Position numbers and translations under genes: made by a program. Source: Sphingomonas naphthae (lineage in GTDB: Bacteria; Pseudomonadota; Alphaproteobacteria; Sphingomonadales; Sphingomonadaceae). From it: a stretch of DNA of 64,000 bases. Shown piece by piece: positions 13,217 to 58,849 of this stretch. The notes beneath the pieces were generated by a model, which was not told the origin of the DNA, ran no database searches, and was given only the letters and a program-made list of their open reading frames with translations. The stretch spans positions 2,604,001-2,668,000 of the forward strand of contig NZ_CP117411.1 of the NCBI RefSeq assembly GCF_028607085.1. Direction: 5' to 3'. Each line of letters begins with the position of its first letter. The first letter of the stretch is position 1.

Positions 13217-13681
13217 TTAATCGGCGGCGGCACTCGTCGATCCGCCGCCCGCGATCGCATCGATCCGGCGGAGCATCGACACGAAGGTCGCCAGCTCGGC
13301 CTCGCTGAAACCGGCGAACAGCCGCGCCTCGATCTCCAGCGCCTTGGGGGCCACCTGATCGTACAGCGCGCGTCCCTCGGCAGACAGCGTCAGCAGATGC
13401 GATCGGCGGTCATCCCGATGGGGCAACCGCGATAGCAGCCCGCGCTGGGTCAGGGCGATGGCGCTGCGGCTGACCGTCACCTTGTCCATGCGGGTGAGCT
13501 GGCCGATCTCCTGCTGGGAAATCATCTCGCGCTCGGCCGTTACGGCAATGATGCGCCACTCCGGGATCTTCAGGTCGAACAGATCGGCATAGATCGACGC
13601 GACCCGGTCGCTCACGAGGTTGGAGGTGAAGGACAGCCGGTAGGGCAGGAAGGTGTCGAGGGTCAGCGTGCGGGCGGCCAT
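13217..13681 (-). CDS. MarR-family regulator divergent from hppD
   Basis: 154-residue winged-helix protein. DNA-binding parts are QQEIGQLTRMDKVTVSRSA and the wing LSRLPHRDDRRSHLLTLS, typical of MarR. The ATG at 13681 (MAARTLTLDTFLPYRLSF) is preferred; an upstream ATG at 13747 would run into the hppD promoter. The 127-nt divergent gap to hppD suggests that it controls hppD-hmgA-fahA and itself. Confidence 0.86.
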   Translation of the reverse strand: MAARTLTLDTFLPYRLSFTSNLVSDRVASIYADLFDLKIPEWRIIAVTAEREMISQQEIGQLTRMDKVTVSRSAIALTQRGLLSRLPHRDDRRSHLLTLSAEGRALYDQVAPKALEIEARLFAGFSEAELATFVSMLRRIDAIAGGGSTSAAAD

Positions 13682-13747
13682 CACCGATCGTACCATTCGC
13701 GCGGCCGGCCGCAATCGGGGACCGCCTGCACTGGAATATCGTAACAT

Positions 13748-13794: not shown

Positions 13795-13808
13795 AAATGG
13801 AGAGTGTG

Positions 13809-14906
13809 ATGAACGGCAGCGCCACCCTCGATCGCCCGGCGGTCGATGCGAGCAACCCCCTCGGGCTCGCCGGCTTCGAATTCTGCGAATTCACCTCGCC
13901 CGATCCCGAGGCGATGGCGCGCCAGTTCGAGCAATTGGGCTTCGTCCCCGCCTCGATCCACCCGACCAAGGCGATCGTCCGCTACAAGCAGGGCCGCATC
14001 AACCTGCTGCTGAACCGCGAGCCGACCGGCCAGGCGGCCGATTTCCGTCGCGATCATGGCCCGTCGGCCAGCGGCATGGCATTCCGCGTGGCCGACGCGA
14101 AGCAGGCGTTCGCCGCCGCGCTCGATCGGGGCGCCAAGGCGGCGGATGCGGCCTCCGGCGCGCTCGGCGAGGGCATCTATGTTCTCGAGGGGATCGGCGG
14201 CTCGCTGCTCTATCTGGTCGATCGCCATGGCGCGGCGGGCAGCCTGTATGACGATTGGGATGCGGTGCCCGGCGCGGCGCAGGCGGAGGCCGAGAATTCG
14301 GTCGGGCTCGATCTGCTCGACCATCTCACCCACAACGTGAAGCGCGGCCAGATGCGCGTCTGGTCCGAATTCTACGGCAAGCTCTTCGGCTTCGAGGAGC
14401 AGAAGTACTTCGACATCAAGGGCAAGGCGACCGGCCTGTTCAGCCAGGCGATGATCGCCCCCGACGGCGCGATCCGCATCCCGCTGAACGAGAGCCAGGA
14501 CGACAAGAGCCAGATCGAGGAATTCATCCGCGATTACAATGGCGAGGGCATCCAGCACCTCGCTCTCTCGACCAACGATATCTACACGACGGTCGAGAAA
14601 CTGCGCGCGCGCGGCGTGCGGTTGCAGGATACGATCGAGACCTATTACGAACTGGTCGACAAGCGCGTGCCCGGCCATGGCGAGGATCTGGCGCGTCTGC
14701 GCCGGAACCGCATCCTGATCGACGGCGACGTGAAGGAGGAGGGGCTCCTGCTCCAGATCTTCACCGAGAATATGTTCGGCCCGATCTTCTTCGAGATCAT
14801 CCAGCGCAAGGGCAACGAAGGCTTCGGCAACGGCAATTTCCAGGCGCTGTACGAGTCGATCGAACTCGACCAGATCCGTCGCGGGGTCATCACCGTCGAT
14901 GGCTGA
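13809..14906 (+). CDS. hppD: 4-hydroxyphenylpyruvate dioxygenase
   Basis: 365 residues. Converts 4-hydroxyphenylpyruvate to homogentisate. The expected two-His-one-Glu iron ligands are seen in [20 protein letters not shown] and [14 protein letters not shown]. The ATG at 13809 ([15 protein letters not shown]) is chosen because GGAGAG lies 5 nt before it; an in-frame ATG at 13797 has no such site. The last 8 nt overlap hmgA. First gene of a four-gene catabolic operon. Confidence 0.95.
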
Positions 14907-16212
14907 CGGGGCCATCCTTCCGGCGGGCGGCATGATGCCGGGCTTCGGCAATCACTTCGCGAGCGAGGCGGTGGCCGGTGCCTTGCCGGTCGGGCGCAAC
15001 AGCCCGCAGAAGGTGCCGTACGGCCTCTACGCCGAGCAGCTTTCCGGCACGGCCTTCACCGCGCCCCGCGCCGAAAACCGCCGTTCGTGGCTCTATCGCC
15101 TGCGGCCGACCGCCAATCATCCGCCGTTCCGCCCCTACGCCCGGCCCGGTCTGATCCGCTCCGCGCCGTTCGACGAGGTGCCCCCCTCGCCGAACCGGCT
15201 GCGCTGGGATGCCCTGCCCCTGCCCGCCGATCCCGTGGATTTCATCGACGGGCTGGTCACCTATGCCGGCAACGGCGATGTCGGCGCGGGCACGGGCCTC
15301 GCCATCCACGCTTATGCCGCCACCGCCTCGATGGTCGATCGCGCCTTCTTCGACGCCGATGGCGAGCTGCTGATCGTGCCGCAGCAGGGCACGCTGCGGC
15401 TGGTGACCGAACTGGGCGTGATGACCGTCGCGCCGCAGTCGATCGCCCTGATTCCGCGCGGGATGCGCTTCCGCGTCGAGCTGATCGACGGGCCGGCGCG
15501 CGGCTATGTCTGCGAGAATTACGGCGCCTTGTTCCGCCTGCCCGATCTCGGCCCGATCGGCTCCAACGGCCTCGCCAACCCCCGCGATTTCGAGACGCCG
15601 GTGGCCGCTTTCGAGGACGAGGACCGGCCGCACGAAATCGTCCAGAAATTTCAGGGCGGGCTGTGGACGACGACGCTCGATCATTCGCCGTTCGACGTGG
15701 TCGCCTGGCACGGCAATCTCGCGCCCTGCCGCTATGATCTCACCCGCTTCAACACGATCAACACGGTCAGCTTCGATCATCCCGATCCGTCGATCTTCAC
15801 CGTCCTGACGTCGCCCAGCGACACGCCGGGCACGGCCAATTGCGATTTCGTGATCTTCCCGCCACGCTGGATGGTCGCGGAGGACACGTTCCGCCCGCCC
15901 TGGTTCCATCGCAACGTGATGAGCGAGTTCATGGGGCTGATTCACGGCAGCTACGACGCCAAGGAGGGCGGCTTCATCCCCGGCGGCGCCTCGCTCCACA
16001 ATCAGATGAGCGGCCACGGCCCCGATCAGGCGAGCTACGAGAAAGCGGTCGCCGCGCCGCTCGCACCGCACAAGATCGAGCGGACGATGGCCTTCATGTT
16101 CGAAAGCCGCAACGTCCTCCGCCCTACCCGCTGGGCCAGCGAAACCCCGCTCGCCCAGCCCGACTACGACCATGTCTGGTCGAATTTCACGAAGGGCAAC
16201 CCGCCGCAATGA
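14899..16212 (+). CDS. hmgA: Homogentisate 1,2-dioxygenase
   Basis: 437 residues, starting [18 protein letters not shown] with the typical [10 protein letters not shown] block. The Fe(II) ligand region is [18 protein letters not shown] with a downstream [13 protein letters not shown]. Opens homogentisate to maleylacetoacetate. It overlaps hppD by 8 nt and fahA by 4 nt (ATGA), which implies tight co-translation. Confidence 0.96.
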
Positions 16213-17510
16213 TCGCCATCGACGACACCCACGATCCGGCGCTGACGAGCTGGGTCGCCTCGGCCAACGGCCATGCCGATTTCCCGATCCAGAACCTGCC
16301 GTTCGGCATCTTCTCCCCCGCCGGCGGGGCGGCCCGGCCGGGCGTCGCGATCGGGGAGAGCATCCTCGATCTCGGCGGCGTGGCGGCGCTGCTGCCCGAC
16401 GCGGTCGCGCCGACGCTCTCGGGCCACACACTCAACGCGCTCTTCGCGCTGCCCGCCGCCGACCGGCTGGCGCTGCGCCGCCGCCTGTCGAGCCTGCTCG
16501 CCGACGAAAGCCATCGCGCGATCGTCGCGCCGATGCTGCACGACACGGCCGGCTGCACGCTGCACCTGCCCGCCGCGATCGGCGACTATTCCGATTTCTA
16601 CGTCGGCATCCACCATGCCAACAATGTCGGCAAGCAGTTCCGCCCGGACAATCCGCTGCTGCCCAATTATAAATATGTGCCGATCGGCTATCATGGCCGC
16701 GCCTCGTCGATCCGCCCATCGGGCGTGCCGGTGATCCGCCCCCAGGGCCAGCGCAAGGCCCCCGATGCCGACGCGCCGACCTATGGCCCGTCGCGCCGGC
16801 TCGATTACGAACTGGAGCTGGGCGTGTGGATCGGCACCGGCAATCCGCTGGGCCAGCTGGTGCCGGTGGCCGAGGCGGGCGGCCATATCGCCGGCTTCTG
16901 CCTGCTCAACGACTGGTCGGCGCGCGACTTTCAGGCGTGGGAATATCAGCCGCTCGGCCCCTTCCTCTCGAAGAGCTTCCATTCGACCATCTCGCCCTGG
17001 GTCGTCACGGCCGAGGCGATGGCGCCCTTCCGGACCGCGCAGCCCGCCCGGCCGGACGGCGACCCCGCGCCCCTGCCCTATCTGTGGGACGAGGCGGATC
17101 AGGCCAAGGGTGCGCTGGCGCTCGATCTGGGCGTCGCGATCCGCACGGCGGCGATGCGGTCGGCCGGCCTCGATCCGCATCCGCTGAGCCGGGGCGTAGC
17201 GACCGACATGTATTGGACGGTCGCGCAGATCGTGGCGCACCACGCCTCGAACGGCTGCAATCTCAACCCCGGCGATCTGCTCGGCACGGGCACGATCAGC
17301 TCGGCCGATCGCGACGGCCTCGGCAGCCTCATGGAGCTGAGCCGGGGCGGCGCCGAGCCCGTCGTCCTGCCCGGCGGCGAGACGCGCGGCTTCCTGGAGG
17401 ATGGCGACGAGATCATCCTCTCGGCCACCGCCCGCGCCGCCGGCTTCGTGTCGATCGGCTTCGGCGCCTGCGTGGCCACCATCCTGCCGGCCCGTCCGGC
17501 ACTGCCTTGA
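16209..17510 (+). CDS. fahA: Fumarylacetoacetase
   Basis: 433 residues. Family blocks include [58 protein letters not shown] and DLLGTGTIS. Hydrolyses fumarylacetoacetate to fumarate and acetoacetate. The ATG overlaps the hmgA stop. No maleylacetoacetate isomerase gene follows, so that step must be encoded elsewhere or be glutathione-independent. Confidence 0.95.
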
Positions 17511-17896
17511 GCGAGACGCCGTCGAGCGCGCGGCTGTGGGCGACCCCGGCCGGCATCCGCCTCGGCCCGCTCGACCTGATCGCCGATGGCGCCGCCCGCA
17601 ACTTCGTCCTCCAGATGAGGGCCGGCCGCTTCCACGGCTTCGCCCTCCGCCGGGGCGATCGCGTCCACGGCTATGTCGATCGCTGCCCGCACATGGGCGT
17701 ACCACTCGCCCAGCACCTCGACCGCTATCTGACGCCCGATGGCGACCTCGTCCTGTGCAGCTGGCACGGCGCCCTGTTCGACCCGGAAACCGGCCTGTGC
17801 GTCGGCGGGCCGTGCGCGGGCCAGCGCCTGACGCCCTGGCCGCTCGCCGTGGTCGACGGCGCGATGGTCACCGCCGCGCCGTCGATCACCCCCTGA
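17507..17896 (+). CDS. Small Rieske [2Fe-2S] protein in the homogentisate operon
   Basis: 129 residues if it starts at the TTG at 17507, which overlaps the fahA TGA (TTGA). The Rieske ligands are complete: CPHMGVPLAQH and CSWHGALFDPETG about 25 residues later, then GGPCAGQRLTPWPL. It resembles free-standing Rieske ferredoxins rather than an oxygenase alpha subunit. Its partner is unknown. The TTG start is inferred from the overlap, as no ATG or GTG fits better. Confidence 0.82.
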   Translation: MSETPSSARLWATPAGIRLGPLDLIADGAARNFVLQMRAGRFHGFALRRGDRVHGYVDRCPHMGVPLAQHLDRYLTPDGDLVLCSWHGALFDPETGLCVGGPCAGQRLTPWPLAVVDGAMVTAAPSITP

Positions 17897-58255: not shown

Positions 58256-58849
58256 TCAGCCGATCTGCACGACGGTGTCGGACTTGAACGAATATTCCGG
58301 CACGACGAGGTTGGTCGGCGCGGGGCCCTTACGGATGCGGGCGGCGGTGTCGTAGACCGAGCCGTGGCACGGGCAGAAATAGCCGCCGAACTCGCCCTTG
58401 ATCTCGCCCTCGCCGGCGCCCAGCGGCACGCAGCCGAGGTGGGTGCACACGCCCAGCGTGATGAGCCAGTTCTTCTTGCCGGGCTTGGTGCGATCGGCCA
58501 GCGACTGCGGATCGCGCAGCGAGGCGACGGGCACCGCGTCGGCCGACTTGATCTCGGCGGGCGTCAGGTTGCGCAGGAAGACGGGCTGCTTGCGCCACAT
58601 CGTCTTGATAGCCTGGCCGGGCGCGATCTTCGAAATGTCTACCTCGATCGAGGCGAGCGCGAGCACGTCGGCCGAGGGGTTCATCTGGTTGACCAGCGGA
58701 ATCACCACCGCCGCCGCGCCGACGCCGGCGAAGCTGACGGCCGCGATGTTCAGGAAATCCCGGCGGCGCGGGCCCTGCCCGTCTTCCTCGGGTCCACCGA
58801 TCACCGGCGGACGCTGATTCGGATCTTCGACGTATTCGGCCGTCGCCAT
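58256..58849 (-). CDS. petA: Rieske iron-sulfur subunit of the bc1 complex
   Basis: 197 residues. A Tat-like N-terminal segment (RRRDFLNIAAVSFAGVGAAA) gives the membrane anchor. The [2Fe-2S] ligands are CTHLGCVPLG and CPCHGSVYD. The hinge TMWRKQPVFLRNLTP is typical. It takes electrons from ubiquinol at the Qo site. First gene of petABC; no clear promoter was identified in the 271-nt gap upstream. Confidence 0.95.
   Translation of the reverse strand: MATAEYVEDPNQRPPVIGGPEEDGQGPRRRDFLNIAAVSFAGVGAAAVVIPLVNQMNPSADVLALASIEVDISKIAPGQAIKTMWRKQPVFLRNLTPAEIKSADAVPVASLRDPQSLADRTKPGKKNWLITLGVCTHLGCVPLGAGEGEIKGEFGGYFCPCHGSVYDTAARIRKGPAPTNLVVPEYSFKSDTVVQIG

Follow-up and report, generated by a model that had tools for sequence, protein, structure and literature searches.

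The textbook route of homogentisate degradation relies on Fe(II) dioxygenases that are sensitive to oxidation. For another dioxygenase, catechol 2,3-dioxygenase, the ferredoxins XylT and CdoT serve as reactivating partners, and Tropel et al. reportedly described in 2002 how a ferredoxin reactivates chlorocatechol 2,3-dioxygenase. Extradiol dioxygenases lose activity when their ferrous iron is oxidised, and ferredoxins reverse this loss, as stated in an excerpt of PMC3222310; an excerpt of a second paper gives “C23O-reactivating ferredoxins” as a known strategy and describes nahT as a chloroplast-like ferredoxin (PMC5336314). A further small electron carrier, the flavodoxin FldX1 of Paraburkholderia xenovorans, is reported to improve catabolism through homogentisate, but in the accessible part of that report it is a flavin protein connected with MhaAB and with oxidative stress, and not with the reactivation of HmgA (PMC10983741). 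A search of the titles and abstracts of open-licence papers found no description of a Rieske gene in the homogentisate operon, and the excerpt of the Phenylobacterium zucineum genome paper lists pathway enzymes among which the Rieske gene does not appear (PMC2529317).

The window, a stretch of 64,000 nucleotides from Sphingomonas naphthae, carries hppD, hmgA and fahA followed by a gene for a small Rieske protein (Table 1). Like the XylT/NahT/CdoT-type proteins, this is a small [2Fe-2S] ferredoxin that is encoded with an Fe(II) ring-cleavage dioxygenase, is optional, and has no dedicated reductase noticed alongside it. XylT, NahT and CdoT are plant-type ferredoxins (chloroplast-like, Fer2), whereas the operon protein is a Rieske protein with PF00355 as its sole Pfam family, and their partner dioxygenases belong to families other than HmgA and HppD; the proposed likeness is one of working, not of membership. 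The sequence comparisons below strongly support that the Rieske gene belongs to this operon, and in part of the Sphingomonadaceae and Caulobacteraceae its ferredoxin is best regarded as a true accessory component of the tyrosine/homogentisate operon.

Table 1. Coordinates of the operon genes and of other features discussed in the text. Positions are those of the window unless a contig or locus is named.
Feature	Position	Strand	Details
MarR-family regulator gene, divergent	13217..13747	-	upstream of hppD
hppD, 4-hydroxyphenylpyruvate dioxygenase, Fe(II)	13797..14906	+	TIGR01263 (4HPPD), 402.5 bits
hmgA, homogentisate 1,2-dioxygenase, Fe(II)	14899..16212	+	TIGR01015, 696.5 bits
fahA, fumarylacetoacetase	16209..17510	+	TIGR01266, 516 bits
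Rieske [2Fe-2S] ferredoxin gene	17507..17896	+	129 aa, TTG start; PF00355, 34.1 bits
Second Rieske-domain gene in the window	58307-58537	-	33.7 bits
maiA, window's genome	G000:C1:2600897-2601517	-	278.4 bits, cut-off 171.05
Second Rieske copy, window's genome	L050:8861-9238; G000:C1:1304866-1305225	-	60% identical
Rieske relative in G011	L054:8506-8853	-	47% identical
Operon with a phenylalanine hydroxylase-like gene (by eye) in G235	L180:3038-9196		Rieske gene last

Operon layout and identity of the Rieske protein

The first-pass annotation had described hppD, hmgA, fahA and the Rieske gene as overlapping head to tail and had placed the last as fourth gene of the homogentisate operon. Its coordinates and gene order proved correct, and operon membership is strongly supported by the same placement in many genomes. 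The hppD and hmgA genes overlap by 8 nt and hmgA and fahA by 4 nt (ATGA), and the TTG start of the Rieske gene shares 4 nt with the TGA stop of fahA. The scores of the three enzymes all lie above the NCBIfam cut-offs, and no ferredoxin reductase gene was noticed within the operon. From its position, the divergent MarR-family gene is the probable operon regulator, and at many of the 80 named loci described below the operon also has a MarR-family gene next to it; regulators of the LysR and MarR families have been predicted for the pathway in gammaproteobacteria, according to an excerpt of PMC5343134.

The Rieske protein exceeds the Pfam cut-off for PF00355 (20.3 bits) and matches none of the NCBIfam models. 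Its cluster motif reads C60-x-H62 ... C84-x2-H87, and the four ligands are invariant across 54 aligned rows, as are two non-ligand cysteines, C98 and C103, of a CxxGPC motif. Among the 80 named loci, the CxH...CxxH motif is readable in 77 (L133 fits too, by eye); the spacing from the histidine of CxH to the cysteine of CxxH is 21 residues in 76 of these 77, and the CxxGPC motif is present in all of them. The AlphaFold2 model (pLDDT 92.0, pTM 0.85) predicts a soluble single-domain fold, with 129 aa and no additional domain, whose best solved structural matches are the ferredoxin components of dioxygenases (VIA: 5bok with Z 13.1 and rmsd 2.3 over 102 residues, CarAc and BphF with Z 12-13; best Foldseek E 3.1e-6). 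Judged by domain, ligands and predicted fold, the gene product is a soluble oxygenase-type Rieske ferredoxin.

Described members of that type, namely CarAc (1vck), BphF (1fqt) and the ferredoxins of nitrotoluene dioxygenase (5bok) and Sphingomonas yanoikuyae B1 (2i7f), share the fold, the similar size and the soluble single-domain build, but their sequences match the operon protein only weakly (best E 6.4e-05, 18-25% identity). Unlike them, the operon protein has no dioxygenase partner of this kind in its operon, and it carries the CxxGPC motif and the 21-residue spacing. Its cluster loops, CPHMG and CSWHGA, are without the second cysteines of bc1-type Rieske proteins. Absence of these extra loop cysteines goes with a low redox potential, the bc1 Rieske proteins being high-potential, and this suggests that the operon protein is of low redox potential, fitting a low-potential donor. 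A cytochrome bc1 Rieske subunit is excluded by the hppD-hmgA-fahA context, with no cytochrome b/c1 encoded alongside, and by the fold. The window holds a second Rieske-domain gene elsewhere, whose product is perhaps, at a guess, the bc1 Rieske subunit.

Placement and occurrence across genomes

A scan of GTDB contigs gave 159 relatives, and the best 80 of these, referred to here as the named loci, are mostly from Sphingomonas, with some from Sphingobium, Caulobacter (including C. vibrioides T5M6 and C. segnis) and Phenylobacterium. In 77 of the best 80 loci, hppD, hmgA or both lie a short way upstream of the Rieske gene in the same orientation, with differing genes in between, a figure biased upwards because only the best 80 of 159 were taken and the query alignment consisted mostly of operon-linked members. 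In the other three of the best 80 (L096, L111 and L131) the Rieske gene lies away from pathway genes. Chance neighbourhood or a misannotated reading frame is ruled out by the conserved placement and by the invariant cluster ligands in relatives: a close relative at the same site in many genomes exceeds what chance would give.

The gene directly before the Rieske gene could be measured in 73 of the named loci, seven being left out for want of a motif match (L116, L133, L140), of an upstream pathway gene (L096, L111, L131) or of a start (L167). It is maiA in 29, hmgA in 24, a short FAA hydrolase gene in 10, fahA in 8 and hppD in 2. With the start codon taken as the one closest to the preceding stop, a choice that favours overlaps, 66 of the 73 loci show a 4-nt overlap between that stop and the Rieske start; the other seven comprise one 1-nt overlap, one 10-nt gap and five gaps of 32-109 nt. 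Two loci have hppD and the Rieske gene without hmgA, and one has hmgA, fahA and the Rieske gene without hppD. Since the preceding gene varies and either hmgA or hppD may be missing, the association is with the pathway and not with a single neighbour, and the Rieske gene appears as the constant end of a block whose contents change. In one locus (L180), genes assigned by eye to phenylalanine hydroxylase and an aminotransferase stand with hppD, hmgA and fahA, and the Rieske gene comes last; this operon apparently encodes the entire phenylalanine route. Here and below, the names gpsA, yciI, EVE, tsaD, LysR, malate synthase, short FAA hydrolase, putrescine operon, nif and phenylalanine hydroxylase were given by eye from translations.

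A fairer count than the named loci, with which it overlaps in genomes (e.g. G021, G027, G028 and G399), comes from scanning the family (397 genomes), with close Rieske relatives called at E<1e-30 and hmgA at E<=1e-100; at most 10 Rieske candidates were scored per genome, so that further copies may be missed. Rieske matches occur in 34 of the 397 genomes at E<=1e-15 and in 32 at E<1e-30, the two genomes left out (G075 and G079) having weak matches of E about 1e-18. hmgA is present in 162 of the 397 and in all 32 that bear the Rieske gene (naive hypergeometric P 4.7e-14). Counted by genus, 11 of 11 Rieske-bearing genera have hmgA, against a background of 43 of 96 (P 6.5e-5); both P values are too small because the genomes are related. 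The Rieske gene and hmgA lie on the same strand within 2.0 kb of each other in 28 of the 32 genomes, and in G399 the Rieske gene directly follows hppD while hmgA is elsewhere, which brings to 29 the genomes with the gene beside hmgA or hppD. It stands away from pathway genes in the remaining three (G011, G285 and G358).

Of the family's 162 genomes with hmgA, 130 have no close Rieske relative (at E<1e-30); the pathway therefore does not strictly require the protein, and HmgA works without it. The first-pass annotation had held that strains without the gene, if their growth on tyrosine were unaffected, would speak against its idea; strains without the gene are indeed common, which bears on the absence part of that statement. 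The 23 hmgA loci of family genomes that were read, all without an adjoining Rieske gene, carry an HppD label beside HmgA in 10 cases and a FahA label in 9; a Rieske label beside hmgA appears in none of the 23, gene calling being poor in L187, L198 and L199. Since it is optional, the gene must have a supportive function and cannot provide a catalytic step.

On an HmgA tree (a quick method, with 100 rows and many open forks), the label “Rieske beside hmgA” needs 9 changes, and none of 500 label shuffles gave a number as low. Gain and loss are indistinguishable on this tree, 76 of whose 100 rows, the window's included, come from Rieske loci and are a non-random choice; two rows scored as minus, L067 (G011) and L181 (G285), belong to genomes that carry the Rieske gene elsewhere.

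Distant relatives and a second copy

Across the class, a scan of 385 genomes found a match to the Rieske alignment (E<=1e-20) in 107, hmgA in 51 and both in 17, with at most 11 Rieske candidates scored per genome, so that further copies may be missed here too. The two genes are adjacent in 2 of the 17, both from the window's family (the window's genome and G114), and lie far apart on one contig in 2 and on different contigs in 13, which in fragmented assemblies does not strictly exclude adjacency. Scores reach at least 166 bits in the two genomes with adjacent genes and in G482 and G695, and at most 119 bits in all others. In G482 and G695, which belong to another family, the relative (166-172 bits) follows a gpsA-like gene and hmgA is elsewhere. 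Distant relatives were likewise found near gpsA-, yciI- and EVE-like genes (L056, L057, L059, L208, L209, L210, L215, L217 and L218).

This wider alphaproteobacterial group belongs to the same family as the operon protein, with about 30-59% identity in aligned loci, but unlike the operon members its genes were not seen beside hmgA. We infer from these sequence relationships that the sphingomonad and Caulobacter lineages probably recruited a member of an older Rieske ferredoxin family to their homogentisate operon. In G011, the relative lies inside a cluster that by eye resembles one for putrescine degradation.

The window's genome itself has a second Rieske copy, which adjoins LysR and malate synthase-like genes (by eye). 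In 22 of the best 80 loci the homogentisate operon is itself bordered by these LysR and/or malate synthase genes, and the second copy may therefore mark a former operon site.

Candidate roles of the Rieske ferredoxin

Of the two guesses in the first-pass annotation, that the protein serves a hydroxylase or that it keeps the Fe(II) dioxygenases reduced, the second appears to be the better remaining one. We tentatively propose, with a confidence just short of even, that the protein is an accessory ferredoxin that re-reduces the oxidised iron of HmgA and/or HppD, by analogy with the reactivation of catechol 2,3-dioxygenase by XylT-type ferredoxins. The Rieske protein would receive its electrons from an NAD(P)H-ferredoxin reductase whose gene lies elsewhere; the mononuclear iron of HmgA and/or HppD would be oxidised to Fe(III) during turnover; the reduced Rieske protein would pass single electrons to this Fe(III); and the active Fe(II) enzyme would be restored, the presumed recipient being HmgA, HppD or both. 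Reactivation fits best because the ferredoxin is translated with two Fe(II) dioxygenases, is optional and needs no ring-hydroxylating oxygenase. The stronger form of the proposal is a dedicated Rieske reactivase, specific to these lineages and derived from the older alphaproteobacterial family, with the non-haem Fe(II) enzyme HmgA, HppD or both as partner; also argued by analogy, it is possible but more doubtful. If it were true, Rieske ferredoxins would rescue iron enzymes from oxidation besides feeding oxygenases and respiratory complexes. In Sphingomonas, Caulobacter and Phenylobacterium an optional carrier is conserved and translated with the dioxygenases, which suggests selection for the upkeep of their iron; a reactivating partner could help enzymes that lose activity in biocatalysis.

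Because the wider family occurs in other gene settings across the class, the job of the protein may be more general. It could be a general-purpose ferredoxin, for repair of Fe-S or other metalloproteins or for another redox task, attached to the operon only through shared aerobic catabolic conditions. The unrelated gpsA-, yciI- and EVE-like neighbours of the wider family and the putrescine-type setting in G011, all assigned by eye, are in line with this reading, but in the window's family the close relatives are confined to genomes with hmgA (32 of 32) and the gene stays with the pathway through several operon rearrangements, and we regard a general-purpose role as rather unlikely.

Alternatively, the Rieske protein could donate electrons to a hydroxylase that feeds the pathway or to a ring-hydroxylating oxygenase elsewhere in the genome, as would suit its nearest solved folds, the ferredoxins of carbazole, biphenyl, nitrotoluene and naphthalene dioxygenases. 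The window's genome encodes seven PF00848 oxygenases, and the L180 operon includes the phenylalanine hydroxylase-like gene. However, PF00848 was found in only 21 of the 32 Rieske-bearing genomes and in none of the other 11 (among the 28 of good quality, 10 have no match), although some Rieske oxygenase subfamilies escape the model, and reading the neighbouring genes at a set of loci showed no oxygenase gene next to the Rieske gene. A Reductase_C (PF14759) ferredoxin reductase is present in 10 of the 11 genomes without PF00848, the eleventh being an 80%-complete assembly, and the window's own genome has four; a reductase without a PF00848 oxygenase fits another electron acceptor. The hydroxylase guess is accordingly disfavoured as far as ring-hydroxylating oxygenases are concerned, within the subfamilies that PF00848 covers; such a partner is unlikely as the general role, and we hold electron donation to a hydroxylase or oxygenase to have a low probability overall.

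It is quite improbable that the protein instead reduces benzoquinone acetate formed by auto-oxidation of homogentisate, thereby limiting pyomelanin and reactive oxygen species. Direct reduction of quinones by ferredoxins is seldom encountered, and the sequence offers no support for it, but the link to the pathway and the optional presence of the gene are consistent with such a role; FldX1, too, is described in the accessible part of its report as having helped growth of P. xenovorans via homogentisate with less oxidative stress (PMC10983741).

That the Rieske protein replaces maleylacetoacetate isomerase, as the lack of maiA inside the window's operon might suggest, or that it has a non-redox role is hardly credible, since its cluster ligands are conserved and maiA stands directly before the Rieske gene in 29 of the 73 measured loci; as a general role, replacement is refuted by the presence of maiA in the same genomes. 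The isomerase, described as missing at first pass, is indeed absent from the operon but not from the genome, where the suggested search placed maiA, above its cut-off, about 16.3 kb upstream of hppD and 2.5 kb ahead of the window start. maiA scores above cut-off in 31 of the 32 Rieske-bearing genomes of the family, G358 being the exception, and the Rieske protein is therefore no stand-in for the isomerase.
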